A DNA stretch of 41,995 nucleotides. It comes from Candidatus Poribacteria bacterium (GTDB lineage Bacteria; Poribacteria; WGA-4E; WGA-3G). Numbering within the stretch: position 1 is the stretch's first letter; every line of letters starts with the position of its first letter. The stretch covers positions 1 through 41,995 of the forward strand of contig JAAXHI010000360.1 of assembly GCA_012270875.1 (NCBI GenBank), given 5' to 3'. A program made the translations under genes and the position numbers. The notes beneath the pieces were generated by a model. The model worked only from the letters and a program-made list of their open reading frames with translations. It had not been told where the DNA came from and ran no database searches. Shown here piece after piece: positions 8,330 to 41,856 of the stretch.

Positions 8330-9373
8330 ATGAACCGTCTCAAGACAAACGTTCTTTCACAAACAACAAGATTTTTCTTCGCCTGCTGTCTGCTCTTGTT
8401 CGCGGGTGCTACGGTTTCCGTTGACGCGAAGATCGTCTTTTGTGTTGACGATGACCTTTACGTCATGAACGATGACGGCACCCACAGACGCAGAATCACA
8501 AAAAACACGCAGGCAATGGACCGTGACCCGCGCTGGTCTCCTGATGGCACACAAGTCGCCTTTACCCGATTCATGGACAAGGACAGGATACAAACCTCGT
8601 CCGAGGTGTTCATCATCAATGCAGATGGAACAAACCCACAGCGACTCACCCATAACAACGTCTTCGATGAATATCCATCCTGGGCCCCCAATGGACGATG
8701 TCTTGCCTTTTCGAGTAGCCGAAGTGGGCGATCAAATGTGTTCGTCATAGAATTGACGAGTCGGACCGTCACACAGTTAACCGGCATTGAAGATGAGGTA
8801 GGGTCCGTGGCTCCCGACTGGTCGCCGGATGGGACACAGATAGTTTTTGAGCGGTTCATCCGAATCAAAAACGGGATCAACCCGAAAACGATCTACGTGA
8901 TGTCTGCGGATGGGCAGCACCCGCGCCCTGTCCTTCCCGATCCACCTGTCAACGGCCCGCCGACGTTCAGGTTCTTTCCGCGCTGGTCGGCAGATGGACA
9001 ACGTATCCTATTTGCTGAAGTCAAATGGTTTGAGACAGGAGATATCGAGAAGATCATTGTTCAGCGGATTGGCAGCAGGAAACAGGAAATAACAGATATA
9101 AATGACAGACTCGGAAACAATTGGTTAGGAGCCGGTACGTGTTGGATGGACAATGACCGTGCCATCCTCTTCTCAATAAGGCGTTCGGATAAACCCACCC
9201 CGAATTATGACATCTATCGCTATACATTTGGGACGCGGGGTCTGAGACGGCTGCCATCGACGGACAGTGATGAGCGGAATCCGGACTGGACAGAAGGTGC
9301 GTTGTCTGTTTCACCATACGGCAAGTTGACAACGCTGTGGGGCGAGATAAAGCAGCCCGCACACGCTGATTGA
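8330..9373 (+). CDS. Secreted PD40/TolB-like beta-propeller protein, copy 1
   Basis: A 347-residue protein with a signal peptide (hydrophobic FFFACCLLLFAGATVSVDA, about residues 15-33) and PD40 (WD40-like, TolB-type) repeats. Blade motifs are RWSPDGTQVAFTR, SWAPNGRCLAFSS, DWSPDGTQIVFER and RWSADGQRILFAE, with a last degenerate NPDWTEG. Such propellers bind proteins or glycans at the cell surface or in the periplasm; the role here is unknown. The C-terminal tail SPYGKLTTLWGEIKQ is shared with the LamG protein at 28972. AAGGAGGAAAC precedes an ATG start, while copies 2 and 3 use GTG. It is one of three near-identical tandem copies. Confidence 0.85.
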   Translation: MNRLKTNVLSQTTRFFFACCLLLFAGATVSVDAKIVFCVDDDLYVMNDDGTHRRRITKNTQAMDRDPRWSPDGTQVAFTRFMDKDRIQTSSEVFIINADGTNPQRLTHNNVFDEYPSWAPNGRCLAFSSSRSGRSNVFVIELTSRTVTQLTGIEDEVGSVAPDWSPDGTQIVFERFIRIKNGINPKTIYVMSADGQHPRPVLPDPPVNGPPTFRFFPRWSADGQRILFAEVKWFETGDIEKIIVQRIGSRKQEITDINDRLGNNWLGAGTCWMDNDRAILFSIRRSDKPTPNYDIYRYTFGTRGLRRLPSTDSDERNPDWTEGALSVSPYGKLTTLWGEIKQPAHAD

Positions 9374-9442
9374 TGAACCAATAAAACGGATCAACCGATT
9401 TTGATATTGAATAACCTTCACCATCAAGAATCATCCGATAAC

Positions 9443-9478
9443 GCAAGCAGTGAGAGTGAGACTCGCCTCGCTGCTTGC
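9443..9478 (+). other. Conserved leader hairpin, PD40 copy 2
   Basis: GCAAGCAGTGAG (9443-9454) pairs with CTCGCTGCTTGC (9467-9478). Compared with copies 1 and 3 the seventh base pair changed from G-C to A-T, a compensatory change that keeps the stem. It ends about 37 bp before the GTG start. Confidence 0.6.
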
Positions 9479-9514
9479 CTCCAAAGCATCAGTTGTACCT
9501 AAGGAGGAAACATC

Positions 9515-10561
9515 GTGAACCGTCTAAAGACAAACGTTCTCTCACAAACAACAAGATTTTTCTTCGCCTGCTGTCTGCTCTTGTTTGCGGGTGCTACGGT
9601 TTCCGTTGACGCGAAGATCGTCTTTTGTGTTAACGATGACCTTTACGTCATGAACGATGACGGCACCCACAGACGCAGAATCACAAAAAACACGCAGGCA
9701 AAAGACCGTCACCCGCGCTGGTCTCCTGATGGCACACAAATCGCCTTTACCCGATTCATGGACAAGGACAGGATACAGACCTCGTCCGAGGTGTTCATCA
9801 TTAACGCAGATGGAACAGCACCACAGCAACTCACACATAACAACATCGCCGACGGGTATCCGTCTTGGTCCCCAGATGGACACCATATCGCTTTTAAGAG
9901 TCGCCCTGGGGGAAAATCAAATGTGTTCGTCATAGAGGTGGAGAGTCAGACCATCACACAGCTAACGGGTATCGATGAAGATGAGGTAGGGTCCACCGCA
10001 CCTGACTGGTCTCCTGATGGCACACAGATAGTTTTTGAGCGGTTCATCCGAATCAAAAACGGGATCAACCCGAAAACGATCTACGTGATGTCTGCAGATG
10101 GGCAGCACCCGCGCCCTGTCCTTCCCGATCCACCTTTCAACGGCCCGCCGACGTTCAGGTTCTTTCCGCGCTGGTCGGCAGACGGACAACGTATCCTATT
10201 TGCTGAAGTCAAATGGTTTGAGACAAAAGATATCGAGAAGATCATTGTTCAGCGGATTGGCAGCAGGAAACAGGAAATAACAGATATAAATGACAGACTC
10301 GGAAACAATTGGTTAGGAGCCGGTACGTGTTGGATGGACAATGACCGTGCCATCCTCTTCTCAATAAGGCGTTCGGATAAACCCGCCCCGAATTATGACA
10401 TCTATCGCTATACATTTGGGACGCGGGGTCTGAGACGGCTGCCATCGATGGACAGTGATGAGCGGAATCCGGACTGGACAGAAGGTGCGTTGTCTGTTTC
10501 ACCATACGGCAAGTTGACAACGCTGTGGGGCGAGATAAAGCAGCCCGCACACGCTGATTGA
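9515..10561 (+). CDS. Secreted PD40/TolB-like beta-propeller protein, copy 2
   Basis: A 348-residue paralogue of the gene at 8330. It has the same signal peptide, PD40 blades and C-terminal tail. It starts with GTG rather than ATG after the same AAGGAGGAAAC site. It differs from copy 1 mainly around residues 108-150 (GYPSWSPDGHHIAFKSRPGG, then EVESQTITQLTGIDEDEVG), where it also carries one extra residue. From about residue 230 onwards it is almost identical to copy 1 (ETKDIEKIIVQRIGSRKQE). This patchwork suggests gene conversion or recombination among the copies. The substrate or partner is unknown. Confidence 0.85.
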   Translation: MNRLKTNVLSQTTRFFFACCLLLFAGATVSVDAKIVFCVNDDLYVMNDDGTHRRRITKNTQAKDRHPRWSPDGTQIAFTRFMDKDRIQTSSEVFIINADGTAPQQLTHNNIADGYPSWSPDGHHIAFKSRPGGKSNVFVIEVESQTITQLTGIDEDEVGSTAPDWSPDGTQIVFERFIRIKNGINPKTIYVMSADGQHPRPVLPDPPFNGPPTFRFFPRWSADGQRILFAEVKWFETKDIEKIIVQRIGSRKQEITDINDRLGNNWLGAGTCWMDNDRAILFSIRRSDKPAPNYDIYRYTFGTRGLRRLPSMDSDERNPDWTEGALSVSPYGKLTTLWGEIKQPAHAD

Positions 10562-10630
10562 TGAACCAATAAAACGGATCAACCGATTTTGATATTGAAT
10601 AACCTTCACCATCAAGAATCACCCGATAAC

Positions 10631-10665
10631 GCAAGCGGTGAGAGGATACTCGCCTCGCCGCTTGC
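10631..10665 (+). other. Conserved leader hairpin, PD40 copy 3
   Basis: GCAAGCGGTGAG (10631-10642) pairs with CTCGCCGCTTGC (10654-10665), a 12-bp stem with one T-G wobble. It ends about 36 bp before the GTG start at 10702. Confidence 0.6.
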
Positions 10666-10701
10666 CTCCAAAGCATCAGTTGTACCTAAGGAGGAAACAT
10701 C

Positions 10702-11745
10702 GTGAACCGTCTAAAGACAAACGTTCTCTCACAAACAACAAGATTTTTCTTCGCCTGCTGTCTGCTCTTGTTTGCGGGTGCTACGGTTTCCGTTGACGCG
10801 AAGATCGTCTTTTGTGTTGACGATGACCTTTACGTCATGAACGATGACGGCACCCACAGACGCAGGCTCACAAAAAACACGCAGGCGAAAGACCGTCACC
10901 CACGCTGGTCTCCTGATGGCACACAAGTCGCCTTTACCCGATTCATGGACAAGGACAGGATACAGACCTCGTCCGAGGTGTTCATCATTAACGCAGATGG
11001 AACAGACCCACAGCGACTCACGCATAACAACGTCAACGACTCGGATCCGTCTTGGTCTCCCGATGCCCAACACCTCGCTTTTACGAGTACCCGTGGTGGG
11101 AAATGGGATGTGTTCGTCATAGAATTGACGAGTCGGACCGTCACACAGTTAACCGGCATTGAAGATGAGGTAGGGTCCGTGGCTCCCGACTGGTCGCCGG
11201 ATGGGACACAGATAGTTTTTGAGCGGTTCATCCGAATCAAAAACGGGATCAACCCGAAAACGATCTACGTGATGTCTGCAGATGGGCAGCACCCGCGCCC
11301 TGTCCTTCCCGATCCACCTGTCAACGGCCCGCCGACGTTCAGGTTCTTTCCGCGCTGGTCGGCAGACGGACAACGTATCCTCTCTTATGAAGTCAAGTGG
11401 TTTGGTGAACAAGATAAGCGGAGTTTCTTTGTTCAGCCGCTCAGTGGTAGGCGGCGGGACATAGCAGATATTAATGACAGGCTCGGCAACAATTGGCTTA
11501 TCTCAGGGGCAAGTTGGATGGACAATGACCGTGCCATCCTCTTCTCAATAAGGCGTTCGGATAAACCCGCCCCGAATTATGACATCTATCGCTATACATT
11601 TGGGACGCGGGGTCTGAGACGGCTGCCATCGATGGACAGTGATGAGCGGAATCCGGACTGGACAGAAGGTGCGTTGTCTGTTTCACCATACGGCAAGTTG
11701 ACAACGCTGTGGGGCGAGATAAAGCAGCCCGCACACGCTGATTGA
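10702..11745 (+). CDS. Secreted PD40/TolB-like beta-propeller protein, copy 3
   Basis: A 347-residue third paralogue, with a GTG start after AAGGAGGAAAC. The signal peptide, first two blades and C-terminal tail (SPYGKLTTLWGEIKQPAHAD) match copies 1 and 2. The third blade is unique (SDPSWSPDAQHLAFTSTRGG). The next segment (ELTSRTVTQLTGIEDEVG) matches copy 1, not copy 2. Around residues 230-275 it is unique again (YEVKWFGEQDKRSFFVQPL, then LISGASWMDND). The mixed pattern indicates exchange between copies with diversification of particular blades. Confidence 0.85.
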   Translation: MNRLKTNVLSQTTRFFFACCLLLFAGATVSVDAKIVFCVDDDLYVMNDDGTHRRRLTKNTQAKDRHPRWSPDGTQVAFTRFMDKDRIQTSSEVFIINADGTDPQRLTHNNVNDSDPSWSPDAQHLAFTSTRGGKWDVFVIELTSRTVTQLTGIEDEVGSVAPDWSPDGTQIVFERFIRIKNGINPKTIYVMSADGQHPRPVLPDPPVNGPPTFRFFPRWSADGQRILSYEVKWFGEQDKRSFFVQPLSGRRRDIADINDRLGNNWLISGASWMDNDRAILFSIRRSDKPAPNYDIYRYTFGTRGLRRLPSMDSDERNPDWTEGALSVSPYGKLTTLWGEIKQPAHAD

Positions 11746-28971: not shown

Positions 28972-29748
28972 CTATCGACGCTGCTTAATTTTACCCCAAA
29001 GCGTTGCAACTTTACCTACCGGATCAACTGCCAGCGTAGCGTCTAAACCGTCATCCATGAGTGCTTGGATGTCAGCCTCTTCAAGTGCGACATCGAAAAG
29101 TAGCATTTCATCGAACATACCTTCCCACTCTCTGCCGCCGCCACTCCATGAACCGATACGTCCAGGTCCAAATTCCCCCGGCAAGGGTCCCCATTTACCC
29201 TCCGCATCAAGTTCGCCATCAAAATAAACGCGAACCGATTCCTCGTTGCTACTGTAGGCAACCGCGAGATGAAACCATTTGTTTAAGATACTTTTGTCTG
29301 CTGTAAAGTCCGAATCCGGCCAACCCGGATGCCGCACGGGGTTGTTAGAATGAATCGCCATCTCCATCTTATTGTCTGGTCGAAACTGGTAATGCACATA
29401 TCCAGCTGCCCAGCCGTCACGGTTGAAAAAGCATCTCCACGCGCCAACTCTCCCGGTCGAATTGAACCATTTTATGAGTGTAAAATCGTCAAGCGGCCCA
29501 ATCTCTGGAACAGTAACCCAGGCATCCTTACCGTTGAGTTCAATAGCGTTGCCGAATTTACCTTTCACCCATTTAGTACCACCAACAAGTTTACCGTCGT
29601 TACCGTTGCCGGATGAATCTTTAGCCACTTTTCCATTCGTTTCGTCAAACAACCATGCACCAACGATAGATTCCGGATCGATTTCAGCGTTGCTGAGTTG
29701 CGCAACCATGCAAACGACGATGATTAAACTAATCGTAAAACGTTTCAT
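28972..29748 (-). CDS. Secreted LamG/concanavalin A-like protein
   Basis: A 258-residue protein with a signal peptide (hydrophobic FTISLIIVVCMVAQLSNA) and one LamG-type beta-sandwich. Typical features are VGAWLFDETNGKVAKDSSGN followed by GNDGKLVGG, KFGNAIELNGKDAWVTVPE, NKWFHLAVAYSSNEESVRVY then FDG, and FDEMLLFDVALEEADIQALM. These domains bind glycans or proteins outside the cell. The tail LAVDPVGKVATLWGKIKQRR matches the C-terminus of the three PD40 proteins (SPYGKLTTLWGEIKQ). GAGGAG lies 7 bases before the ATG. Confidence 0.85.
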   Translation of the reverse strand: MKRFTISLIIVVCMVAQLSNAEIDPESIVGAWLFDETNGKVAKDSSGNGNDGKLVGGTKWVKGKFGNAIELNGKDAWVTVPEIGPLDDFTLIKWFNSTGRVGAWRCFFNRDGWAAGYVHYQFRPDNKMEMAIHSNNPVRHPGWPDSDFTADKSILNKWFHLAVAYSSNEESVRVYFDGELDAEGKWGPLPGEFGPGRIGSWSGGGREWEGMFDEMLLFDVALEEADIQALMDDGLDATLAVDPVGKVATLWGKIKQRR

Positions 29749-30202: not shown

Positions 30203-30697
30203 GTGGAAGTGGTATCTCGACGTAAATTTTTCAAATTTCTCGGTTGGGGAAATTTCACTGCAGCACTGGGGTTGACATTGGGACCAGGATTAGTTCGGTA
30301 TCTGTATCCGCGTGTCCTGTTTGAACCGTCCTCCATTTTTAAAGCAGGATTTCCAGCAGAGTATCCGCCGGGCAGCGTTAGCGAAAAGTATAAAAAAGAA
30401 CCTTATGGTGTTTGGATTGTTCGGAAACAGGATGGCGAATTCTACGCCCTCTTAACCATTTGTACACATCTCGGATGCACACCACGCTGGCTCGGTTCAG
30501 AGAGCAAATTCAAATGTCCCTGCCACGGTAGCGGCTTTGACCGGGAAGGTGTTAACTACGAAGGTCCCGCACCACGTCCGCTTGAACGTGTTAAGATTAC
30601 GTTGGCAGAAGATGGTCAGCTCGAAATCGATAAGTCCGTGAAGTTTTTAGGTGAGAAGGGGCAGTGGACGGACCCAGGCTCCTTTTTGAAGGTCTAA
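30203..30697 (+). CDS. Rieske [2Fe-2S] protein of a cytochrome bc/b6f-type complex
   Basis: A 164-residue membrane-anchored iron-sulfur protein that moves electrons from quinol to cytochrome c. The N-terminus has a twin-arginine motif (SRRKFFKFLGWG) and one membrane helix. The cluster motifs are CTHLGC (C87, H89 as ligands, C92 in the disulfide) and CPCHGSGF (C105, H108 as ligands, C107 in the disulfide). The start is GTG 30203 or GTG 30209; neither has a standard Shine-Dalgarno, only a G-rich stretch (GGGGGTGGAA). It is the first gene of the respiratory cluster. Confidence 0.92.
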   Translation: MEVVSRRKFFKFLGWGNFTAALGLTLGPGLVRYLYPRVLFEPSSIFKAGFPAEYPPGSVSEKYKKEPYGVWIVRKQDGEFYALLTICTHLGCTPRWLGSESKFKCPCHGSGFDREGVNYEGPAPRPLERVKITLAEDGQLEIDKSVKFLGEKGQWTDPGSFLKV

Positions 30698-30742
30698 AGA
30701 AAGGAGAGCATTCGTACCTGGCTCCAGTCAGGTAGAAAAGGC

Positions 30743-30800
30743 GTTTCGGCGTTGTAACCGTATCTTGGATACTCCTTAGTTACAACATATACGTCGAAAC
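30743..30800 (+). other. Nested stem-loop between the Rieske and cytochrome b genes
   Basis: The outer stem GTTTCG/CGAAAC (30743-30748 and 30795-30800) and inner stem GTTGTAAC/GTTACAAC (30751-30758 and 30779-30786) lie 15 bp before the cytochrome b start. A further small hairpin, ACCTG/CAGGT, precedes it near 30716-30733. It may tune the relative expression of the two proteins. Confidence 0.45.
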
Positions 30801-30814
30801 TTGCTATAAAGAGT

Positions 30815-31585
30815 ATGAACGAAGAACGAAAAGGGCTCAAAGAAAAGATTACGAATTCCGACATTTGGCGTTCTATATTCCGCCACGGATATGAAGACAC
30901 AGGACGCCGATACACTTTACAGGTTCTCCAAAACGTCTGGTTACATCTCCATCCCCCTCGGGTTTCTCGCCACGCACTCAACTTCCGGTTTACATGGTGC
31001 ATGGGTGGAATTACCTTCCTTATGTTTCTCGTGACAGCCGTCACCGGTGTGCTCCTGATGTTCTATTATCGTCCAACTGCTGAATACGCTTTCCACGATG
31101 TACAATACCTCGAATTTGATATCCCATTCGGTATGCTCCTGCGGAACATGCACCGCTGGGCAGCGCACGGGATGGTTATCTCGGTAATGTTGCACATGTT
31201 CCGGGTCTTTTTGACCGGTTCCTACAAAAAGCCACGAGAATTTAACTGGGCAGTTGGTGTTATCTTACTGCTCGTGACATTTTTCCTCAGCTTCACCGGC
31301 TATCTGCTCCCGTGGGATCAGTTGGCTTTCTGGGCTGTGACTGTTGGAACGAACATGGCACGCGCAACACCGGTCTTAGGGCATGAAGGCCCCTTCGCAC
31401 CGCAGGACATCACACAATCGAATGATGTCCGATTTGCGCTATTGGCAGGGACAATTGTGGGACCCTCAACACTGTTAAGGTTCTATATTCTACATTGTGT
31501 CGCTGTACCACTTCTGGCGAGCGTCTTGATGGCTTTGCATTTCTGGCGTGTCCGTAAAGATGGAGGCATCTCCGGCCCGCTATAA
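30815..31585 (+). CDS. Cytochrome b, N-terminal half (b6-like)
   Basis: A 256-residue membrane protein with four helices that carries the two b hemes. The heme ligand pairs are seen as RNMHRWAAHGMVISVMLHMF (His, 13 residues, His) and YILHCVAVPLLASVLMALHF (His, 14 residues, His). The 14-residue spacing in the second pair is the b6 pattern, in contrast to 13 in bc1. The stretch SFTGYLLPWDQLAFWAVTVG contains the conserved heme and quinol-site residues. The split of cytochrome b into two genes also fits a b6f-like layout. The start codon has only a weak AAAGAG before it. Confidence 0.92.
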   Translation: MNEERKGLKEKITNSDIWRSIFRHGYEDTGRRYTLQVLQNVWLHLHPPRVSRHALNFRFTWCMGGITFLMFLVTAVTGVLLMFYYRPTAEYAFHDVQYLEFDIPFGMLLRNMHRWAAHGMVISVMLHMFRVFLTGSYKKPREFNWAVGVILLLVTFFLSFTGYLLPWDQLAFWAVTVGTNMARATPVLGHEGPFAPQDITQSNDVRFALLAGTIVGPSTLLRFYILHCVAVPLLASVLMALHFWRVRKDGGISGPL

Positions 31586-31683
31586 ACGTCTTTAACAATT
31601 TTGTAGTGCCAAGCATCACGCAGGGGCTATTTGATTGGGCGTTTCTTCATAGATATACGAAGAGGATCGTGGTTGCAAAAGCA

Positions 31684-31701
31684 TCCTAACCGAACCGCAA
31701 G
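31684..31701. repeat. CCTAACCGAACCGCAAGG dispersed repeat
   Basis: An 18-bp word in the gap before the subunit IV-like gene. It recurs with one change near 41950-41968 (CCTGACCGAACCGCAAGG), and its CCTAACCGAACC core is an arm of the palindromic element at 28176-28248. Confidence 0.6.
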
Positions 31702-31728
31702 GGAGATTAAAAGAAGGAGCAGATTAAT

Positions 31729-32595
31729 ATGGAGCATTTTATACTGCTGGTGACGAAGCCGGATAACGTCCCTATTGTTGCTATTCTCTTTTTGATACCG
31801 TATTTCATCTGGCTTTCGTACCGGCAAGCGCGCCAAACTGACAAGACAGGGGTGCCTTCGGATGCTGCACTCAACGATAAAGTCTACGTGTGGCCCTATC
31901 TGTGTCGGAACGAATTCATCTGCGCGATTATTGTGATGCTCGTGCTCGGGGTCTGGTCCATTATGATTGATGCCCCACTTGAGGAACCCAGCGACCCAAC
32001 GAAAACACCGAACCCTTCCAAAGCACCTTGGTACTTCCTTGCGCTCCAAGAGATGCTGGTCTATTTCGATCCGTGGATCGCGGGGGTCGTACTCCCTGGA
32101 TTGATTATTGCCGGCTTGATTGCGATTCCCTACATTGACACCAATCCAAAGGGTAAAGGCTACTATACGATCAAAGAGCGTCCGTTCGCACTCGCTGTAT
32201 TCAGCTTCGGATTTATCGTTTTATGGATCGTCTTGATGGTCGTCGGTACATTCCTGAGAGGGCCCGGATGGAACTTCTTCGCGCCGTGGGAAGCATGGGA
32301 TCCACACCTCGTTGTGCCGTTGACAAACGTGAATCTGTCCTATCTTTTCGGTATCCGTGGTGAGGATACTGCAAACTTTTTCGGATTCGTCGTCGTCGCA
32401 GGCTATTTCGCGCTCGGTCCTATCTTCTATTTGTGGAAACGGAACAGTAACCGCTTCTTACAAGAACTCGGTCTTATTCGATATATCGTCGTCTCGTTCC
32501 TGTTCTTAACCATGCTCGCACTGCCAATCAAAATGATCTTGCGAATATTCTTCAATGTGAAATACATCTGGGTATCCCCGTGGTTCAACATATAG
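31729..32595 (+). CDS. Cytochrome b, C-terminal half (subunit IV-like)
   Basis: A 288-residue membrane protein that completes the cytochrome b of the complex. It has the Qo-site region KAPWYFLALQEMLVYFDPW, where APWY stands for the PEWY motif of mitochondrial/proteobacterial enzymes. It has several hydrophobic helices, more than the three of plant subunit IV. GAAGGAG precedes the ATG at 9 bases. The 143-bp gap before it contains a CCTAACCGAACCGCAAGG repeat (31684-31701), also found near 41950. It probably assembles with the preceding cytochrome b, the Rieske protein and the octaheme cytochrome that follows. Confidence 0.88.
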   Translation: MEHFILLVTKPDNVPIVAILFLIPYFIWLSYRQARQTDKTGVPSDAALNDKVYVWPYLCRNEFICAIIVMLVLGVWSIMIDAPLEEPSDPTKTPNPSKAPWYFLALQEMLVYFDPWIAGVVLPGLIIAGLIAIPYIDTNPKGKGYYTIKERPFALAVFSFGFIVLWIVLMVVGTFLRGPGWNFFAPWEAWDPHLVVPLTNVNLSYLFGIRGEDTANFFGFVVVAGYFALGPIFYLWKRNSNRFLQELGLIRYIVVSFLFLTMLALPIKMILRIFFNVKYIWVSPWFNI

Positions 32596-32661
32596 CGAGG
32601 ACAGTTTACACGCACGCGTGTACATATTGTTAAGTAATGACATCGTATTGTCCCAATTGAC

Positions 32662-35600
32662 ATGGAGGTAGATAAGTTCGTGAGGAACAAAAAAGAAATT
32701 CCTGCTGAAAGTAAATCGTATTCTGCTTTGTTCTTTATTCTGTCCGGACTGTTAGGACTTGTAACTATTTGGGGGTTCTGGAGTGAGATGATCACCCGCC
32801 GTCCCTGGAAGCAGATCCAGCAGCAGTTTTATCAATATGAATATGAGAAAACACACGCGGAATTAGAGAACGCAAAGTTGGCTTTGCCCGAACTTCCCGC
32901 ACCTCAAGAACCTGACGCGAAAGAGTTAGCAAGGTTGACAAAAGAGGTGCGAGACGCTCAAGTCACACTCGACGAAGCACTGCAGGAACGCAAATTCCGA
33001 CAGAGCGAATCGGACGCGATTAACTATAAATATCAGCATAGCCTCCACGTCGCAAAAGGGAAACCCGACGCGACTGTTAAAAAGTGGCAAGAGAAATTGG
33101 CTGAACTTGAATCCCAAATTGAAGACGAACTGACCGAAGCCGTCTTGACAGCTGAGGCTACTTTCGCTGATGTAAACAAAGCGTTGGCGCAGTTCTATCA
33201 AACCAGCGGAGACCCGCAGCACGCACTCAGCACCTATCTCATCGCGCAGAAATATAACACCACAGACACGGAAATTACTGAAGGTATCACCGCTGCACAA
33301 GCCTCACTTCAGGCACTACAAGTCGATAAAGCAAAATATGACGAAGTCGAACGTCTACAGGAAAAATTACATTCGGTCGGTGGTATCAAGCGAACCTTCC
33401 TCGGCAGTCTATTAGAAAACCCGTTCCGTGAAACGCGGACGATCACGCAATACTATCTTGAGGACTTCAATTACACCGCAGACAGGTGTGCGACCTGCCA
33501 CTTTTCTGCTGATAGAAGCGGCTACGAACAATCCGCAGAAGAGACGTTTGAGGTCGAAGGTGATGGCGAAAATCTTGTTGTCCACCGTCTCAAGCATCCA
33601 AGTGTCAAGGTCGGTAGTGAAAGCGTCATAATTGATGACTTTGATGCGGAAGCAGACGAATATACACTGGAAGAAAACGGTACGCTCACCTTTAATGACG
33701 TAGACGTTTTTGGCGAAGTCCAAATTTCTTATGAGACCGGCTATCGCTCCGTCCTTCAGACGCATCCACACCGCGATGTCCTCCTCGCGAAGCACCCTGT
33801 TGACAGGTTTGGGTGTGTACCGTGCCACGGTGGACAAGCACAAGCACTGACAGCAAAAGCCGCCCACGCGCTAACACACGCTGAATACTGGCTCAGCCCC
33901 GTACTCGGATTGGATGAACATACCGGTAGAACCTCTGAAGAGACGAAAGGGTATATGGAGTCTAATTGCCGCCGTTGTCATGATGGGGTCATGAAGTTAG
34001 ATTACGGCGTGAACCCTGAAACAGATGAACCTGTGGACTATGCCCCGAATCTGACAAAAGGGTTGGCACTCTTTGAAGACCTCGGCTGCCACGGCTGCCA
34101 CGCTGTGGAAGGGTATAGTGCAATCGAAAACATCAACAAAGTCGGTCCATCGCTCGCAAAAGTTGGCAGTAAGGTGAAAGATACGGCTTGGCTCGAAAGT
34201 TGGGTTAAAACACCGGAAGCGTATCTACCAAATACGACAATGCCGAACTTCTTCCCCGCTGATGGTATGAGTCAGGTCGTCTACCTCAAGAACGGCGGTG
34301 TACGCACAGGTGTTGTCACCAAAATCGATGGCGGTATTGAGATTAAAACGGATGATGGCACTGTATATCCCTATACCGATGATTATGTCCTCCGCATCGT
34401 TGATGAGGTGAAATCTATTGCAGCATATCTCGCCACGATGAACGATACCAATCTTGACGAAGCCTCCGTAAACTATTCCACATCTGAAAGCGTTATTAAA
34501 GCAGGTGAAGAGACTGTTAAAACCGTCGGCTGTCTCTCGTGCCATGCCGTTGATGGTTTAGGCAGCGATTTTGCACCAGCACTCGACAGTGTCGGCACAA
34601 AAGTTACACCGAATTATCTCCGTCAATGGATTAGCGACCCGAAATCTTATGATCCTGATACGAGTATGCCAAGCTTACGGTTAAGTACTCGCGAAATTGA
34701 TAACGTTGTTGCCTATCTAATGAGTTTGCAACAGCCAACAGCCAATGTAGCGACTGATTCTATTGGTGAAGTGGATGTCGCCGAAGGTGAGGCACTTGTC
34801 AGAACTTACGGATGCTTCGGTTGCCACGAAATTCCAGGTTTTGAGAATGAATCCAAAGTCGGTGCCGACCTCGGTGAATTCGGCGCGAAACTTGCTGATG
34901 AACTTGACTTTGGCGATACAGTAGGCGTTGAACACAGTTGGACCGGGTGGACGATTGGGAAGGTTACCGACCCGCGGCGTTATCAGACGCGCCGTATTGT
35001 CTCTCGGATGCCCGTCTTCCAGATTAATGACGAAGACGCAAGGGCACTCGCTGTGCTTTTGAAAAGCTTCCAACCAGAGAAATACCCACTCAGTTATATC
35101 CATAACCGATCCGAAAAATTGGATCGCATTGATGACGGTAGGCGACTCGTCAAAAAATATAACTGCACCGGATGCCACCAGATTGAAGGCGCAGGCGGCG
35201 ATTATCGCGACATTATCATCGCACATGAAGGGCTCAGTGATATGATTGCCACGCAGCTCGCACCGCCACCATTGAAGGCTGAAGGCGCAAGGGTCTATCC
35301 CGACTGGCTGTTCGTTTTCCTCAAAGAACCTTCTGATATTCGCTACGGACTCAAAGTACGGATGCCAACATTCGATCTATCTGATGACGAGGCGACGACG
35401 CTTGTTAAATATTTCTCAGCACTTGACGATGAACCGTTCCCTTATGAAACGATTGAAACACCGATGCCGACGCGTGCTGAATTGCGGGTCGGTAAACAGA
35501 TTTTTGACGAACTGCAGTGTATTTCTTGTCACCCTTCGCAGGGCGAAGTTATTCCTGCAGGCAGTGACAAGGCAGGACGACCCGATCTCGCATTGGCGAA

Positions 35601-35790
35601 AGAACGGCTCAAGGCAGATTGGCTCATTGATTGGATGAAAGATCCGCAGGCGTTCCAACGCGGAACAGCAATGCCACAAGCGTGGCCACTTGTCGGTGGA
35701 CAGCACATGGCAGTTGACGGATACGCTGGCAATGACGCTGAAAAACAGATTCAACTCGTCCGAGATTATCTCATCTCCTTGGGACGCTAA
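32662..35790 (+). CDS. Octaheme membrane-anchored cytochrome c with a coiled-coil domain
   Basis: A 1,042-residue protein. One membrane helix (about 20-40) anchors it, followed by a charged coiled coil (about 50-240) rich in Glu, Lys and Ala. Eight CxxCH heme motifs start at about residues 276, 385, 436, 476, 624, 718, 835 and 953. A small beta domain (GVRTGVVTKIDGGIEIKTDD, about 545-570) lies between hemes four and five. Repeated cytochrome c-like units contain MP motifs (TTMPNFFP, TSMPSLRL, SRMPVF, VRMPTF, TAMPQAW) that may supply Met axial ligands. It is probably the electron acceptor of the cytochrome b/Rieske unit. GTG 32680, preceded by GGAGG at 11 bases, is an alternative start. Confidence 0.88.
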   Translation: MEVDKFVRNKKEIPAESKSYSALFFILSGLLGLVTIWGFWSEMITRRPWKQIQQQFYQYEYEKTHAELENAKLALPELPAPQEPDAKELARLTKEVRDAQVTLDEALQERKFRQSESDAINYKYQHSLHVAKGKPDATVKKWQEKLAELESQIEDELTEAVLTAEATFADVNKALAQFYQTSGDPQHALSTYLIAQKYNTTDTEITEGITAAQASLQALQVDKAKYDEVERLQEKLHSVGGIKRTFLGSLLENPFRETRTITQYYLEDFNYTADRCATCHFSADRSGYEQSAEETFEVEGDGENLVVHRLKHPSVKVGSESVIIDDFDAEADEYTLEENGTLTFNDVDVFGEVQISYETGYRSVLQTHPHRDVLLAKHPVDRFGCVPCHGGQAQALTAKAAHALTHAEYWLSPVLGLDEHTGRTSEETKGYMESNCRRCHDGVMKLDYGVNPETDEPVDYAPNLTKGLALFEDLGCHGCHAVEGYSAIENINKVGPSLAKVGSKVKDTAWLESWVKTPEAYLPNTTMPNFFPADGMSQVVYLKNGGVRTGVVTKIDGGIEIKTDDGTVYPYTDDYVLRIVDEVKSIAAYLATMNDTNLDEASVNYSTSESVIKAGEETVKTVGCLSCHAVDGLGSDFAPALDSVGTKVTPNYLRQWISDPKSYDPDTSMPSLRLSTREIDNVVAYLMSLQQPTANVATDSIGEVDVAEGEALVRTYGCFGCHEIPGFENESKVGADLGEFGAKLADELDFGDTVGVEHSWTGWTIGKVTDPRRYQTRRIVSRMPVFQINDEDARALAVLLKSFQPEKYPLSYIHNRSEKLDRIDDGRRLVKKYNCTGCHQIEGAGGDYRDIIIAHEGLSDMIATQLAPPPLKAEGARVYPDWLFVFLKEPSDIRYGLKVRMPTFDLSDDEATTLVKYFSALDDEPFPYETIETPMPTRAELRVGKQIFDELQCISCHPSQGEVIPAGSDKAGRPDLALAKERLKADWLIDWMKDPQAFQRGTAMPQAWPLVGGQHMAVDGYAGNDAEKQIQLVRDYLISLGR

Positions 35791-35795
35791 ATAGT

Positions 35796-35904
35796 TGTCA
35801 GTAGTCAGGACGGTTTTCTCCGAAAACCTTTCAGTTTTTAGAAAGACTTCAGGGCTATCAAAACCTCTTGTAACTGACAACTGATAACTGATAACTCAAA
35901 ACCA
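35796..35904. repeat. TGTCAG/CTGATAACTGA repeat before the monoheme cytochrome gene
   Basis: The gap contains GTTGTCAGTAGTCAGGACGG and CTGACAACTGATAACTGAT, of the same family as the copies at 23985-24121 and 37741-37886. It reaches to about 15 bases before the ATG at 35907, which has no Shine-Dalgarno. Confidence 0.6.
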
Positions 35905-35906
35905 TT

Positions 35907-36263
35907 ATGAGACACCTTGTGGTCGTCATCGTCATGATTATTGTGTGGCTCAACGGTTTGATCTGGTTGGGCAGGCAGGTTGATCCGAGTACAAAGTATC
36001 AGTCAGCGGTAGAATACAAGTACGCACGATACTGTGCAGGGTGTCATGGGAACAATGGAGAGGGCAGCGGACGTATCGGGCGTTTCAAAAAGTTGGACCC
36101 GGCGGATCTAACGGATAACAGTCTCTGGGACATGCACGACGATGAACAATTACTCGATAGTATTAACGCCGGAAAGGACGATATGCCAGCGTTCTATTAC
36201 TATCTCAGTGATGAAGAACAACGGGAAATGCTCGCATATATTAAAGAAAGGTTTCGTCCGTAA
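35907..36263 (+). CDS. Membrane-anchored monoheme cytochrome c
   Basis: A 118-residue cytochrome c. The uncleaved N-terminal signal anchor (VVVIVMIIVWLNGLIWLG) is followed by the heme motif CAGCHG (C43) and an MP motif (DDMPAFYYYL), whose Met is the probable sixth ligand. Its size fits a class I cytochrome c that shuttles electrons between neighbouring complexes. It may carry electrons from the octaheme protein to the CydA-like oxidase. The upstream gap is filled by an intergenic repeat and lacks a ribosome binding site. Confidence 0.9.
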   Translation: MRHLVVVIVMIIVWLNGLIWLGRQVDPSTKYQSAVEYKYARYCAGCHGNNGEGSGRIGRFKKLDPADLTDNSLWDMHDDEQLLDSINAGKDDMPAFYYYLSDEEQREMLAYIKERFRP

Positions 36264-36377
36264 CTTGAAGTTGGTCTAATGGAATCGGAATTGAAAGTCA
36301 ACACATTCCTAAGTCATCAGCGTGAGATGTGAATGCAGAGTGCACGCTGTGTGAAAGAATATCGTGTGGAGGTATAG

Positions 36378-36839
36378 ATGCGACATTTGATTGTATGTAT
36401 GCTGTTAATGTCCTTTTACAGTTACGGCTTCTCGGATCCAGGCGAGGTTGATGAAGACGGTGGACATTATGATCAAAAAACAGGCGAATACCATTATCAT
36501 ATAAAACCGGATGAACCATCAGATCTGACTTCTGTCCAATCGCAGGCTATTGCGGATGCACAACGCGACGCTTTACAGGTAGATAACAATATCTGGATAG
36601 CAGCTGGGGTTTTCGGCGGTATATTCGGTATAGGTGCTGCTATGATTGTGAAACCTACAGTCCCTCCCATGGCATTGATTGGAAAACCGCCTGAATACAT
36701 TACTTTTTACACCCATGCATATCAAGCCTCCGTAAAAGATGGGCAGGTTAAAGCAGCAACGGCTGGATGTCTCGGAGGAACTGCTGTTTCCATCATGTGT
36801 CTTTTGGTATTACAACAACAGGGTTACGGCTACTACTAA
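36378..36839 (+). CDS. Small membrane protein with a HYHYH motif and a GKPPEY domain
   Basis: A 153-residue protein of unknown function. A signal peptide is followed by GGHYDQKTGEYHYHIKPDEP (about residues 28-47), a His-rich KTGEYHYH motif that could bind metal. Then come a hydrophobic stretch, PMALIGKPPEYITFYTHAYQ, and AATAGCLGGTAVSIMCLLVL as a last hydrophobic segment. The second half matches the protein at 39789 (GKPPEYIAVYIDTYKE, AGC, G-rich helix). GGAGG lies 5 bases before the ATG. Its place between the monoheme cytochrome and cupredoxin genes suggests a role in assembly or in the complex, but this is only inference from context. Confidence 0.7.
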   Translation: MRHLIVCMLLMSFYSYGFSDPGEVDEDGGHYDQKTGEYHYHIKPDEPSDLTSVQSQAIADAQRDALQVDNNIWIAAGVFGGIFGIGAAMIVKPTVPPMALIGKPPEYITFYTHAYQASVKDGQVKAATAGCLGGTAVSIMCLLVLQQQGYGYY

Positions 36840-36914
36840 ACTCAGGGCATATACGAGGAAACTAAAGGGCTAACACCAAAATGGCACTGATTTTTTACGG
36901 TTGACGCATTTGAT

Positions 36915-36944
36915 TTGCGTTCTTAATTTCTGTAGTGTTAATAT
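36915..36944 (+). promoter_or_regulatory. Possible promoter for the cupredoxin gene
   Basis: TTGCGT (36915-36920) and TAATAT (36939-36944) are 18 bp apart, about 47 bp before the ATG at 36991. An overlapping alternative is TTGACG at 36901 with TAATTT at 36924. Both are moderate matches. Confidence 0.3.
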
Positions 36945-36990
36945 ATTACAGAACACATTTAAATTATAATATAACAAGGAGAAAATAGTC

Positions 36991-37743
36991 ATGAAAACCC
37001 TAATGACCTTGCTTGTCTTTGGAATGCTGGCGAGCGTTGCATTGGCAGGCAATATCACTGGCACGGTAATGTATGATGGCGACGCACCAGCGCGTCCAGA
37101 ACTAACCGTTACCAAAGACCAGCACTGCATTGACGCTGGAAAAGGCACAAAGTCCGAGGCACTCGTTGTCTCAAAAGGCAAAGGCATCAAAAATGTTGTT
37201 ATTTACGCCCGCGTTCGCGGCGCAAAAGTAACCTTGCCTGAAGAAAACCCGAAGATGGACCAAGTGGATTGTGCTTACTATCCACACGTCTTGGTAGTTC
37301 CTGTCGGTGCTACAGTGGATCTTGTCTCCAGTGATCCAGTGGCGCACAACGTCCACTCACATGCCCAGAAGAATACGGCAGTAAATACGCTGATTCCGAA
37401 TAGCGGGGTAGTTATCCCACATAAAATCGAAAAAGCTGAGGAAATTAAGTTCACATGTGATATCCACGCGTGGATGACCGGCTACATCGTCGCTGTTCCC
37501 AGCAACTTTTATACTGTCACCGGTTACAAGGACGCTGAAGACAAAATGATCAGTTCAGATGCGTATGAAAAGTCAGCGGACACTGGAAAATATACACTCG
37601 AAAATCTGCCTGCCGGTAGAGCGCGCGTCGTCGCATGGCACGAAGAACTCGGCAAAGCGAACAAAACCGTTGAAGTACCCGCAAGTGGTGATATTGCCGT
37701 AAACTTCACAAGTGCTGATTTTAAGAAACAAGAAAAAAAATAG
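36991..37743 (+). CDS. Secreted cupredoxin-like blue copper protein
   Basis: A 250-residue periplasmic protein. A signal peptide (cleavage near ALA-GN, residue 19) is followed by a plastocyanin-like fold. Type 1 copper ligands are visible: His119 or His122 in AHNVHSH, then Cys156, His159 and Met162 in FTCDIHAWMTGYIV. A C-terminal beta domain (TGKYTLENLPAGRARVVAWH, about 200-245) resembles a carboxypeptidase regulatory-like domain. AAGGAG precedes the ATG. It is a candidate electron carrier between the octaheme/monoheme cytochromes and the CydA-like protein encoded next. A role as a copper-binding structural subunit is also possible. Confidence 0.85.
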   Translation: MKTLMTLLVFGMLASVALAGNITGTVMYDGDAPARPELTVTKDQHCIDAGKGTKSEALVVSKGKGIKNVVIYARVRGAKVTLPEENPKMDQVDCAYYPHVLVVPVGATVDLVSSDPVAHNVHSHAQKNTAVNTLIPNSGVVIPHKIEKAEEIKFTCDIHAWMTGYIVAVPSNFYTVTGYKDAEDKMISSDAYEKSADTGKYTLENLPAGRARVVAWHEELGKANKTVEVPASGDIAVNFTSADFKKQEKK

Positions 37744-37886
37744 CAGTCAGTTTCCGTCAGTAGTCAGCAAGAAACCTTCTTTGCTGACAGCAACCGAAAG
37801 TCAACGGCTGATAGTCTGTTTGATTTGATAGGTTCAGAAAACCGAAAGGGATCCCGCTGACAGCCGACGGCTGACAGCCGAAAGCC
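37741..37886. repeat. CTGACAGCCG repeat block before the CydA-like gene
   Basis: The gap is built from CAGTCAGTTTCCGTCAGTAG and related words, and ends CTGACAGCCGACGGCTGACA then GCCGAAAGCC immediately before the ATG at 37887. The same word occurs at 21130-21167. No ribosome binding site remains before the gene. Confidence 0.6.
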
Positions 37887-39788
37887 ATGAAAATATCTAA
37901 GAAGCGGCTCTATCTCATACTGGGTTGTGTACTCGTCTTTTATGCCTTGTTAGCTATCGCTCCAGCATTCGCACAGGACGTGACCGAGGCTGAGTATCGC
38001 GCCTTCCCGAAGATCGGTAGCCGAAACGCAGCATGGATCGCCGCGCAGCTCCATCTACTCTTCGGTTCCTTTATTCTCGGCGTCCCGATGTTCGCTGTTA
38101 TCATCGAATTCATCGGTTGGAAGACCAAGGATGAACGATACGACCGGATGGCACAAGAGTTCATTAAACTCTGTATGGGCGCGTTTTCAACAACAGCCTT
38201 ACTCGGTGGTGTGCTCGTCTTCATTCTGATCTGGTGCTATCCGAAAGTGATGAGCAAGCTCAGTGGGATCTTCGGACCGACGATGATTTTTTACGTCATC
38301 CTATTTTTCGGCGAAACCTTTACGCTCTACCTCTATTCCTACGGATGGGATAAGATGCAAGGACGGCATAAAGGCTGGCATCTCTTCCTCGGTGTCTTAT
38401 TAAACGTGTGGGGCACGGCGATTATGTTTGTCTCTAACTCCTGGTTGAGTTACCAGACGAGTCCCGCAACCCAGTACGGTATTCTATCTGAAGGAAGGCG
38501 GAAGTCTTGGATTGAAGAAAAATTGGCTGACGATCCGTCCCTAACACCTGAAACCGCTATGGAGGGGGTTACAAGCCATACAATGGTGCCACTCCACAAC
38601 GAGACAACAGGCGAATTCATGGGGACCCTTTGGGATGCTGTCAATAACTTTACGTGGATGCCTGTTAATATCCATCGGCTTGTCGGGAACATCGCTTTCG
38701 GCGGTTCAATCGTGGCAGCTTATGCCGCGTTCCGGTTCCTCGTCGCTAAGACGAAAGAGGACAAAGCACACTACGATTGGATGGGGTATACCGGGAACTT
38801 CATCGCTCTCTGTGGACTTATACCACTGCCTTTCCTCGGTTATTGGCTCGGTAGAGAAATCTACATGTTCAATAATACGATGGGCATCAACATGATGGGC
38901 AGTCTCTTCTCTTGGCTCTTTATTATTCAAGCAGTGATGATTGGTGTCTTGTTCATCGGTGCCAACTATTACCTCTGGTCAGGCATGGGGCGCATTCAGG
39001 GCGCGGAGATCTACGCGCGTTACCGTCCGTACATGATTACGGTTATTATTATCTGTGTCGCAATCTGGATGACCCCGCGAACGCTCTCTAAAATCTCAAC
39101 CGCCAGTGAATTGAGTGCAATGGGCGGTGCAAACCATCCACACCTCGGACTGTTCGGCTTGATGACTGCCAAGAATACGGCTGTTAACATTATCATCCTT
39201 ACGACTTTCTTGAGCTTCTTGTTCTATCGACGTTCCGGGAAAACACCAACAGCGAGTTGGCGAAAGGTGGGGAACATAGCGATTTCCTCTATCTTATTTT
39301 TCGCAACGATCTCAATTGTGGTGATCGGCATCGTCGGATTTACCGTTCCTACTGACCTACGCGTCAATGTCCTAACCCCGTATCAAGTGCTTGTCGCACT
39401 CGCTGTCATGGCAGTCGTCACTGTTGTTGACATCTTCATGTACCGAAAAGCCACAACATCTGGAACTATTAACTGGGGTGAAATGACGGACCGTTCACAG
39501 TACGTTTTAATCCTTATCGCTATTACGTTTACGTCCCTTATGGGACTGATGGGCTATGCGCGTTCAGGACTAAGAGAAGCATGGCACATCTTCGGGGTTA
39601 TGCAAGATACATCTCCGGATGCATTTACGCCGCTTCTCAGCGAGGCGGTGAACATGGTAGCAATCATCATGGTAGCCTTCTTTGCACTCGTCGGGTTTAT
39701 CTTCTGGCTCGGTTTATGGGGAGAAAAGAAGAAGCAAGCATCAGCAGCTACCGCCGACGCAGCCATCGCCGCTGAGGGTGATGATTAA
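37887..39788 (+). CDS. CydA-like oxidase subunit without the quinol-site motif
   Basis: A 633-residue multi-pass membrane protein homologous to cytochrome bd subunit I, longer than canonical CydA. An N-terminal extension with its own hydrophobic segment ends at AFAQ (residue 30). H56 (AAQLHLLFGSF) corresponds to the heme b595 ligand, and E143 (FFGETFTLYLYSYGW) to E107 of E. coli. The residue eight positions earlier, E99 in E. coli, is Phe. The quinol-site motif GRQPW is absent, in contrast to the protein at 5037. H (NIHRLVGNIAFGG) may be the heme b558 ligand. No CydB-like gene follows. Context suggests electrons come from cytochrome c or cupredoxin. The start codon directly follows a repeat. 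Confidence 0.8.
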   Translation: MKISKKRLYLILGCVLVFYALLAIAPAFAQDVTEAEYRAFPKIGSRNAAWIAAQLHLLFGSFILGVPMFAVIIEFIGWKTKDERYDRMAQEFIKLCMGAFSTTALLGGVLVFILIWCYPKVMSKLSGIFGPTMIFYVILFFGETFTLYLYSYGWDKMQGRHKGWHLFLGVLLNVWGTAIMFVSNSWLSYQTSPATQYGILSEGRRKSWIEEKLADDPSLTPETAMEGVTSHTMVPLHNETTGEFMGTLWDAVNNFTWMPVNIHRLVGNIAFGGSIVAAYAAFRFLVAKTKEDKAHYDWMGYTGNFIALCGLIPLPFLGYWLGREIYMFNNTMGINMMGSLFSWLFIIQAVMIGVLFIGANYYLWSGMGRIQGAEIYARYRPYMITVIIICVAIWMTPRTLSKISTASELSAMGGANHPHLGLFGLMTAKNTAVNIIILTTFLSFLFYRRSGKTPTASWRKVGNIAISSILFFATISIVVIGIVGFTVPTDLRVNVLTPYQVLVALAVMAVVTVVDIFMYRKATTSGTINWGEMTDRSQYVLILIAITFTSLMGLMGYARSGLREAWHIFGVMQDTSPDAFTPLLSEAVNMVAIIMVAFFALVGFIFWLGLWGEKKKQASAATADAAIAAEGDD

Positions 39789-40301
39789 ATGAGAAGGACT
39801 GGTATATTTCTTTTTGTGATAGGGTTGACTTTCGGTTTTCCGCTTATAGCGACTGCTGATTCGTCTCAAGCAGAATTAGAGGTATTAAAGCGAATTACAG
39901 CTGCCGCTAAGCACGATGCTAATGCTGATACTGATGCGGACGGATGTTTCTGGTTTTGTAGCGGTTTTTCTTTAGCACTTGGTGGCGGTTGTCTTTTAGG
40001 TGCGCTCAGTTTGATACCGTCTTATTCATATCGACCTTCTCCGCCGCTCAGTCGACTTGTGGGGAAACCACCTGAATATATCGCAGTTTATATAGATACC
40101 TATAAAGAACAAAGGAGATCGACTGCAGCAGGCGCGGTAGTAGCGGGTTGTGCTTTAGGGGCAGCCACTGCTGGATGTCTGGCACTCGTTGGTGTTTCTC
40201 CATGGTCGACTACGCTTCAGGAATCAACGGGCAAGTATAGACACAGTCTGGATGTACTTTTTATTGGAATCAGTCGCGTGGCAGCGGCTGGTAAACTGTA
40301 A
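39789..40301 (+). CDS. Small membrane protein with a GKPPEY domain
   Basis: A 170-residue protein of unknown function. A signal peptide (LFVIGLTFGFPLIATA) is followed by a helical segment, a Cys-rich patch (DGCFWFCSG), a Gly-rich hydrophobic stretch and LSRLVGKPPEYIAVYIDTYK, then AAGAVVAGCALGAATAGCLA. The GKPPEY region and following hydrophobic segment match the protein at 36378, so they are probably distant paralogues with a shared domain. The ATG follows the CydA-like stop codon without any gap, so they are translationally coupled. It is probably an accessory or assembly factor for the CydA-like protein; this is inference from context. Confidence 0.7.
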   Translation: MRRTGIFLFVIGLTFGFPLIATADSSQAELEVLKRITAAAKHDANADTDADGCFWFCSGFSLALGGGCLLGALSLIPSYSYRPSPPLSRLVGKPPEYIAVYIDTYKEQRRSTAAGAVVAGCALGAATAGCLALVGVSPWSTTLQESTGKYRHSLDVLFIGISRVAAAGKL

Positions 40302-40347
40302 AAATGAAACGAAGTAGAACGGCGCGCGGAGGTCCATAGTTTAAAAA

Positions 40348-41856
40348 ATGTCAAGAAATACGCTCATAAAAATCGCAAGTCTAATCTTAATGGTGGTGAG
40401 TTTCATCGCCTATATCGCTGGTGCATCTGCGTTCCCGATCGCCTCGGAGAATTTACTGCCTTGGTCGGTCTGGTTTCTGATTTCGGTCATTGTGAACATT
40501 GTTTTGTGGACCAGTGTTATGAGGTTATTGACATTCTCGCTTGCCGTGATATGGTTTTACGCCTTTGTCGCAGGGCTTGTCCCCGAAAGTTCCACAGCAG
40601 TGAGTGTAACCGAATTGGATTGGAGCGATCCAGATGCAGTCGCTGAGCTGGGTGCCTTGGTGTTTAATGGGAAAGGACAGTGCGCCGCGTGCCATACCGT
40701 TGATACTTCCGCACCGCCTGGGAGATGTCCCGACTTAACAGACATCGGCGTTAATGCTGCAACCCGCGTCTCCGGCATGGAGGCAAAGGCGTATTTGATT
40801 GAGTCCATGTATCAACCAGCGAACTTTCTTGTTCCCGGCTACGGCAAAATTATGCCAGAGGTATGGAAACCGCCTATTAATCTCTCCAAATTAGAGATTG
40901 AAGCCGTCATCGCTTACCTCCAGAGTCAGGGCGGCGAAATTGACCCCACACCGTTTGATGAACCTATAGATAGAGCGGACGTAGGTGCTACCGCTGAAGC
41001 ACTGCCACCTTTGCTCACCGGTGATTCGGAAATGGGCAAAAAGGTTTTTGTGGATGCCGCGTGTATCTCGTGCCATGCTGTAACCGGAATAGAGAGTCCA
41101 GCAGCCGGTGAGACCAATGAAGACTTTGAAATCGTTACCGCACCGGATCTCTCCGAGATCGCAGCATTTAACGACATGCGCTACCTTGAGGAGTCAATCC
41201 TTCTACCCGGCGCGCAAATTGTCAGTGGCTACGGCGCAGTTACTGTCCGTGCGAAAGGAACCACTTTCCAAGGCACGCTTGTTTCACAAGACGAAGAAAA
41301 AATTGTCGTCCGAACCAAAACAGCAGATGGCATGGAAGAAGAGCATACCATCTTATTGAGCGAACTTGATGACGAACCGATTGAGGATCTCACAAATCTG
41401 AAAGCAAAAGGTTATTTGACTCTAACACTAACGCCTACGGATGCAGACGCACCGGTAAGTGGTGAAATCGTTTCGGAAACAGATGAAACCGTAACGCTTA
41501 AAATTGGAGATGAAAATAAAACTTTTTCTAAAACAGATGTCAAAAGTCAGATGACTGTTATTACTTTCGATGGCGACGAAATTGTGGGCGACTATGTTTC
41601 AGGAACGATGGACGACGACGAAATCGTCTTAATCGTGGACGGAAGTGAAGAGATATTTGATACGTTTGATCTTGAGGAAGCTGCAATGACCCGTGCGCGT
41701 GGTAAGAAACTCCTTGTCACATCACCGATGCCCGAAAACTTCCCGATCATCTTATCGGTCGCAGATTTGACCAATCTACTCTCTTTCTTGAGCACACTCA
41801 CTGGTGCAACAGCGGAAGCAGCACCAACGGAGACAGGAGATACTCCCGCGGAATAA
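40348..41856 (+). CDS. Membrane-anchored diheme cytochrome c
   Basis: A 502-residue protein. Three N-terminal membrane helices (about 5-30, 38-58 and 60-78) are followed by two cytochrome c domains with heme motifs CAACHT (C112) and CISCHA (C239). The first domain has MPEVW (probable Met ligand), and SPMPENF lies near the end. Between the second heme motif and SPMP is a long beta-rich insert (about 295-450) with VRAKGTTFQGTLVSQDEEKI, similar in style to the beta insert in the octaheme protein. ATG 40348 is the first start after an in-frame stop; GGAGG is 15 bases upstream, rather far. It would complete the electron path to the CydA-like subunit. Confidence 0.85.
   Translation: MSRNTLIKIASLILMVVSFIAYIAGASAFPIASENLLPWSVWFLISVIVNIVLWTSVMRLLTFSLAVIWFYAFVAGLVPESSTAVSVTELDWSDPDAVAELGALVFNGKGQCAACHTVDTSAPPGRCPDLTDIGVNAATRVSGMEAKAYLIESMYQPANFLVPGYGKIMPEVWKPPINLSKLEIEAVIAYLQSQGGEIDPTPFDEPIDRADVGATAEALPPLLTGDSEMGKKVFVDAACISCHAVTGIESPAAGETNEDFEIVTAPDLSEIAAFNDMRYLEESILLPGAQIVSGYGAVTVRAKGTTFQGTLVSQDEEKIVVRTKTADGMEEEHTILLSELDDEPIEDLTNLKAKGYLTLTLTPTDADAPVSGEIVSETDETVTLKIGDENKTFSKTDVKSQMTVITFDGDEIVGDYVSGTMDDDEIVLIVDGSEEIFDTFDLEEAAMTRARGKKLLVTSPMPENFPIILSVADLTNLLSFLSTLTGATAEAAPTETGDTPAE

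Follow-up and report, generated by a model that had tools for sequence, protein, structure and literature searches.

C-terminal tags expose hidden sorting systems, as PEP-CTERM exposed the exosortase. Poribacteria are dominant uncultured symbionts of sponges, and what they present to the host is a key issue. The type A sorting domain of the type IX secretion system (T9SS; TIGR04183, Por_Secre_tail) is a C-terminal module of Sec-exported proteins with many domain types. A single-cell study of Poribacteria in 2014 described TIGR04183 domains without finding any Por structural genes, and the pathway was said to remain "to be revealed" (PMC3909097). A survey published in 2016 found the T9SS in Bacteroidetes alone (PMC4793230).

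Here we describe a short C-terminal tail of a different kind in Candidatus Poribacteria. The window, i.e., the whole 41,995-nt stretch of DNA that was analysed, is one contig of an assembly of 5.74 Mb in 597 contigs, and four of its genes carry the tail, one encoding a LamG-domain protein and three encoding PD40 beta-propeller proteins with Pfam PD40 E-values from 5e-24 to 2e-23 (Table 1). The LamG and PD40 proteins have 13 positions in common over their last 24-29 residues, and their folds are unrelated because Pfam assigns Laminin_G_3 to the former and PD40 to the latter. The four gene ends and the Pfam folds thus agree with the original prediction that unrelated folds end almost alike here, and the signal peptides that it ascribed to all four proteins are evident in the sequence of each. 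It had placed the shared ending at 28972-29033, which spans the LamG tail and stop codon; the strand is minus.

Table 1. Positions of tail-carrying genes and their parts in the window, and of the SprA-like gene elsewhere in the source genome.
Feature	Position	Strand	Basis
LamG-domain exported protein, 258 aa, carries tail	28972..29748	-	ORF; Pfam Laminin_G_3 1.6e-19, residues 72-228
C-terminal tail of LamG protein, LAVDPVGKVATLWGKIKQRR then stop	28975..29034	-	sequence; tail profile 45.1 bits, 8.0e-11
Signal peptide of LamG protein, MKRFTISLIIVVCMVAQLSNA	29686..29748	-	our reading of the sequence; n/h/c regions evident
PD40 beta-propeller exported protein, copy 1	8330..9373	+	ORF; PD40 2e-23
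Tail of PD40 copy 1, LSVSPYGKLTTLWGEIKQPAHAD then stop	9302..9370	+	sequence; tail profile 4.3e-10
Signal peptide of PD40 copy 1, MNRLKTNVLSQTTRFFFACCLLLFAGATVSVDA	8330..8428	+	our reading of the sequence
PD40 beta-propeller exported protein, copy 2, GTG start	9515..10561	+	ORF; Pfam PD40
Tail of PD40 copy 2, LSVSPYGKLTTLWGEIKQPAHAD-type	10490..10558	+	sequence; tail profile
PD40 beta-propeller exported protein, copy 3, GTG start	10702..11745	+	ORF; Pfam PD40
Tail of PD40 copy 3, LSVSPYGKLTTLWGEIKQPAHAD-type	11674..11742	+	sequence; tail profile
SprA-like ORF of the source genome (L328)	G000:C421:499-6462	-	orthologs L329:5267-11719, L334:5439-12002

Several other features of the window were observed. 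The tandem PD40 trio (8330-11745) is 88-92% identical with near-identical 3' halves, a recent duplication or gene conversion. A methyltransferase-like ORF on the minus strand (745-2898) contains the in-frame repeat DKPTAYPPDKPTSYPPDKPTSYPPDKGGRG, which resembles an inserted short element. By our own reading of the translations, a respiratory cluster on the plus strand (30203-41856) encodes a Rieske protein, cytochrome b pieces, a 1042-aa multi-CxxCH cytochrome c protein, a cytochrome bd-like subunit and further c-type cytochromes.

The last 26 residues of the LamG protein, used as a query against the source genome, had 118 matches, and a profile built from 27 tails scored 150 matches among 253 candidates. 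When the ORFs were shuffled three times, 0, 1 and 0 matches exceeded 8 bits, so the tail does not arise by chance. In the 93 loci fetched from this genome, 155 profile matches are C-terminal, with 0-8 residues between the match and the stop codon; the sole strong internal tail, on contig C380, precedes NYPNPFNPETWIPYRL, with which a T9SS-type C-terminal domain begins. Tails lie at most 11 residues from the stop in 225 of 226 cases from fetched loci outside the main set, mostly of other genomes, and at most 6 residues from it in all 47 cases from six deep-branching genomes. The consensus can be written as [LF]xV[ED]PxGKL[AT]TTW[GA]x[LI]K plus 0-8 residues, roughly LAVEPxGKLATTWGxLK; over 151 tails it reads x-V-[ED]-[PA]-x-[GD]-K-L-[AT]-T-T-W-[GA]-x-[LI]-K, with the final K conserved in 150, the K before L in 135 and the V in 131 of them (the W, present in 151 of 151, is fixed by construction).

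Well over 100 unrelated exported proteins per genome can share the tail, about 155 in the source genome. Once the tails are removed, the bodies of the carriers fall into 36 BLAST clusters, a few of which are merely short fragments, leaving at least 30 unrelated clusters. The carriers are small, with a median ORF length of 266 aa. Pfam domains of 149 carriers include LamG in 74, PD40 in 16, 3keto-disac_hyd in 10, CBM9 in four and F5/8 type C in three, along with others. According to a simple home-made rule, which is not SignalP, signal peptides are present in 132 of the 141 testable carriers (94%) versus 102 of 307 other ORFs from the same loci (33%). Anchoring as lipoproteins was rejected, as merely 5 of these 132 signal peptides resemble class II. 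Tail conservation in our LamG alignment (A5) is biased, its loci having been selected by the tail pattern, and LamG ORFs were therefore also chosen regardless of the tail, which then appeared in 67 of 72 ORFs of up to 350 aa and in 0 of 8 larger ones. The genome search thus meets the expectation that many signal-peptide proteins would end in the motif, and two of the three outcomes named beforehand as refuting it, namely a tail in four genes alone or a tail inside domains, fail against the 150 scored places and the 155 copies at C-termini.

The third such outcome was recombination of a 3' end, and a corresponding rival explanation would make the tail a functionless shared end spread by recombination or duplication. 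The three PD40 copies of the window are indeed recent duplicates (88-92% identical), and many LamG genes are paralogous and lie in tandem. However, identical tail residues use the same codon in just 38% of comparisons, and all six leucine and all four threonine codons appear at conserved positions; with the full range of synonymous codons in use, the tail is conserved as protein and not as codons, which a copied 3' end does not account for, and recombination of a 3'-cassette was rejected on these grounds. The carrier bodies are, moreover, unrelated, and the tail is kept across 22 genera, leaving this explanation with almost no credibility.

In the AlphaFold model of the PD40 protein, the propeller is confident and the tail (residues 325-347) has a pLDDT of about 31, while in that of the LamG protein residues 243-257 form a weakly predicted helix (pLDDT about 56-61) after and outside the beta sandwich; the models thus place the tail outside the fold in both proteins. 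The hydrophobic moment of the helix is moderate, 0.42-0.52, compared with a median of 0.25 and a 95th percentile of 0.48 for shuffled sequences. No transmembrane stretch was detected in any of 155 carriers, defined as a 15-residue hydropathy of at least 1.9 in the last 45 residues, the highest value being 1.67, and no carrier has a cysteine in its last 25 residues. A role in folding, stability or chaperone binding, without any part in localisation, could be invoked for a tail that is near-universal and highly conserved in small LamG proteins. We regard it as very unlikely given that the tail is common to unrelated folds, is predicted to lie outside them in both modelled proteins, and is missing from homologous LamG bodies that bear a T9SS domain.

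The tail is present in 85 of 85 Poribacteria genomes, covering 22 of 22 genera, with 13 to more than 100 copies per genome, the counts being capped near 102. In a DNA pattern scan of bacteria and archaea with one genome per species, Candidatus Poribacteria account for 78 of 80 among the matches listed, and the absence of the tail from other phyla is a statement about this sample. One of the outlying contigs, labelled Thermoprotei archaeon (QMRH01000053.1, L259), is probably misbinned, judging from its gene content, since it contains three tandem tail proteins and its neighbouring genes are common to Poribacteria loci. The other, assigned to "Deltaproteobacteria" (L230), has a real tail on a short ORF, its remaining ORFs do not match Poribacteria loci, and its origin is undecided. 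Neither NCBIfam nor the other family libraries searched contain a model that describes the tail, and our literature search found no paper describing it, or a T9SS in Poribacteria.

About 50 matches to the T9SS-type domain occur in the source genome, and the relationship between this domain and the tail was examined by profile comparison. The tail matches the segment preceding the T9SS domain (97.8% probability, 6.8e-13, 19 columns), whereas comparison with the end of that domain gave a probability of 0.1%, i.e., no similarity, ruling out the tail as a shortened T9SS domain. It is not a T9SS C-terminal domain. In hybrid proteins the two modules co-occur in a fixed order: exactly six residues separate V-E-[PSA]-x-G-K-x3-T-[WL]-G-x-[IV]-K from the N[YF]PNPFNPETW downstream of it in 28 of 28 distinct linkers, and hybrids of this kind were scored in 81 of the 85 genomes. 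The modules also replace each other on homologous bodies within one genome: the tail-bearing LamG protein of C494 is 56-60% identical to that of C192, which has a T9SS domain, the tail-bearing LamG protein of C351 is 50% identical to its T9SS-domain counterpart of C314, and C353, with the tail, is 51% identical to C356, with the T9SS domain. In both LamG pairs the similarity extends no further than the LamG body, which marks a module boundary. The proposed analogy with T9SS signals is supported by this swapping and by the fixed order of the hybrids. The hybrids, holding both modules, speak against a simple equivalence of the two.

Two further observations concern these proteins. The 415-aa ORF of C353 (L094) contains an internally duplicated domain that also occurs in C356. 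The majority of T9SS-domain proteins are without the tail segment, and most have another recurring segment before the domain, approximately GIxxLxxLLxxLxPxxTALLP. It forms a second conserved module ahead of the domain and lies upstream of NYPNPFNPETW in L125-L153, for example; L140 also has dockerin-like repeats.

Contrary to the 2014 report, Poribacteria encode a divergent SprA-like translocon together with multiple PorV-family and PorU-like genes, as identified by sequence comparison. The predicted SprA-like protein is a single ORF of about 2150-2310 aa, found by its profile in 84 of 85 genomes, with a weak SprA_N match and E-values of 5e-43 to 5e-47 against TIGR04189 (T9SS translocon Sov/SprA); at 157 bits it does not reach the curated cut-off of 200 bits, and its profile matched no solved structure at 1e-3. 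PorV-family proteins exceed the cut-off in 21 of 21 genomes, with 14-21 matches each, and PorU-like C25 proteins reach 4e-95, below the cut-off; on contig C220 of the source genome a PorU-like gene directly adjoins a PorV gene. A search for GldM gave no match in 16 genomes, nor did it in control genomes.

These genes allow for a third kind of T9SS export signal, in which a periplasmic PorV paralog would bind the tail and deliver its carrier to SprA without an Ig-like domain. SprA-like, PorV and PorU-like genes are present throughout, the 14-21 PorV-family matches per genome would suffice for several signals, and the tail does swap with the T9SS domain on homologous bodies. We nevertheless consider this route doubtful: the tail shows no similarity to the end of the T9SS domain, the hybrids hold both modules with the tail upstream, and tail genes are not enriched near PorV genes, where 12 of them in 368 kb (20 fetched regions) are close to the genome average and hence reveal no linkage. 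Comparison of 205 tail loci with control loci also yielded no neighbour family specific to the former, the commonest neighbours (oxidoreductase-like, WD40 and PhyH-like families) being equally or more common in the latter. The suggested co-occurrence with a particular processing or secretion gene was therefore not found; no partner was isolated, and because T9SS genes are as universal in the phylum as the tail is, co-occurrence cannot separate the one from the other.

Taken together, the C-terminal position, the breadth of carriers, the link with signal peptides, the module swap and the order of the hybrids are best explained by a portable C-terminal tag for sorting or anchoring, specific to the phylum, that operates in parallel to T9SS domains. 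We consider this reading probable, with receptor, destination and cleavage all being inferred; against it stand the lack of a receptor from the neighbourhood comparisons and the many T9SS-domain proteins without the tail segment. The small carriers would be exported through Sec by their signal peptides. Outside the inner membrane, a common receptor would then bind the disordered or weakly helical tail, with its conserved V, K, W and K, and may place or hold the carrier at the cell surface or in a matrix around the cell. The tail and the T9SS C-terminal domain would then serve in parallel, as alternatives on homologous bodies. If a PorU-like protease removed the T9SS domain from the hybrids, the tail would be exposed as their mature C-terminus, the same one that stand-alone carriers have, and for this reason we lean towards surface anchoring over translocation, although with less than even confidence; the choice between export and anchoring is inferred. 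A sorting, secretion or surface-anchoring signal had been suggested from the four window genes; at least 30 unrelated clusters, their signal peptides and the phylum-wide distribution support it, whereas the sorting role itself, the choice between export and anchoring, and the machinery that reads the tail have not been demonstrated.

Alternatively, the tail could dock its carriers onto a shared extracellular scaffold, similar in logic to dockerins and with no role in export. It is short, solvent-exposed, independent of the fold and inclined to form a helix with a hydrophobic face, and its carriers are chiefly carbohydrate-binding or propeller domains, as would fit a matrix. However, we identified no scaffold in which a candidate receptor is present in many copies, and the neighbouring genes give no signal, so we hold this possibility to be unlikely. 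The sorting or anchoring tag remains our preferred reading. Its most far-reaching form is offered only tentatively: the tail would represent a novel type of signal for outer-membrane secretion or surface anchoring that has neither a folded domain nor a membrane helix, is recognised by a receptor specific to the phylum and is coupled to a divergent T9SS not reported before from Poribacteria.

In practical terms, a large share of the exported proteins of Poribacteria, mostly short LamG and propeller proteins, can be recognised by the sequence of the tail. The SprA-, PorV- and PorU-like genes reopen the 2014 puzzle of T9SS domains without secretion genes (PMC3909097). Since practically every genome tested has them, the new tag and the T9SS route are both directly testable.

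Among known systems, the T9SS type A domain differs from the tail in being an Ig-like domain of about 85 aa that ends in RKMLIxK, the tail having about 20 residues and being unfolded; TIGR04183 was matched by one of 149 carriers alone, in a set that includes a hybrid. None of the PEP-CTERM, LPXTG, GlyGly-CTERM and MYXO-CTERM models appeared among the best 25 of 30 NCBIfam families for these carriers. Encapsulation peptides of microcompartments and encapsulins resemble the tail as short, terminal, amphipathic docking helices; the carriers, by virtue of their signal peptides, leave the cytoplasm, so the tail is not such a peptide. Dockerins are likewise C-terminal docking modules on carbohydrate-active exported proteins, unlike the tail in having calcium-binding repeats, which its roughly 20 residues lack. 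The PEP-CTERM/exosortase system shares with the tail a short, phylogenetically restricted C-terminal homology on dozens of unrelated exported proteins (PMC1569441), but the tail has no transmembrane helix. Similarly, the MYXO-CTERM/myxosortase system has a phylum-universal C-terminal tag on dozens of proteins (PMC11980579), from which the tail differs in that its carriers have neither a transmembrane helix nor, in their last 25 residues, a cysteine. The tail thus belongs to none of the families tested and works like a C-terminal sorting tag, its role in localisation being inferred.
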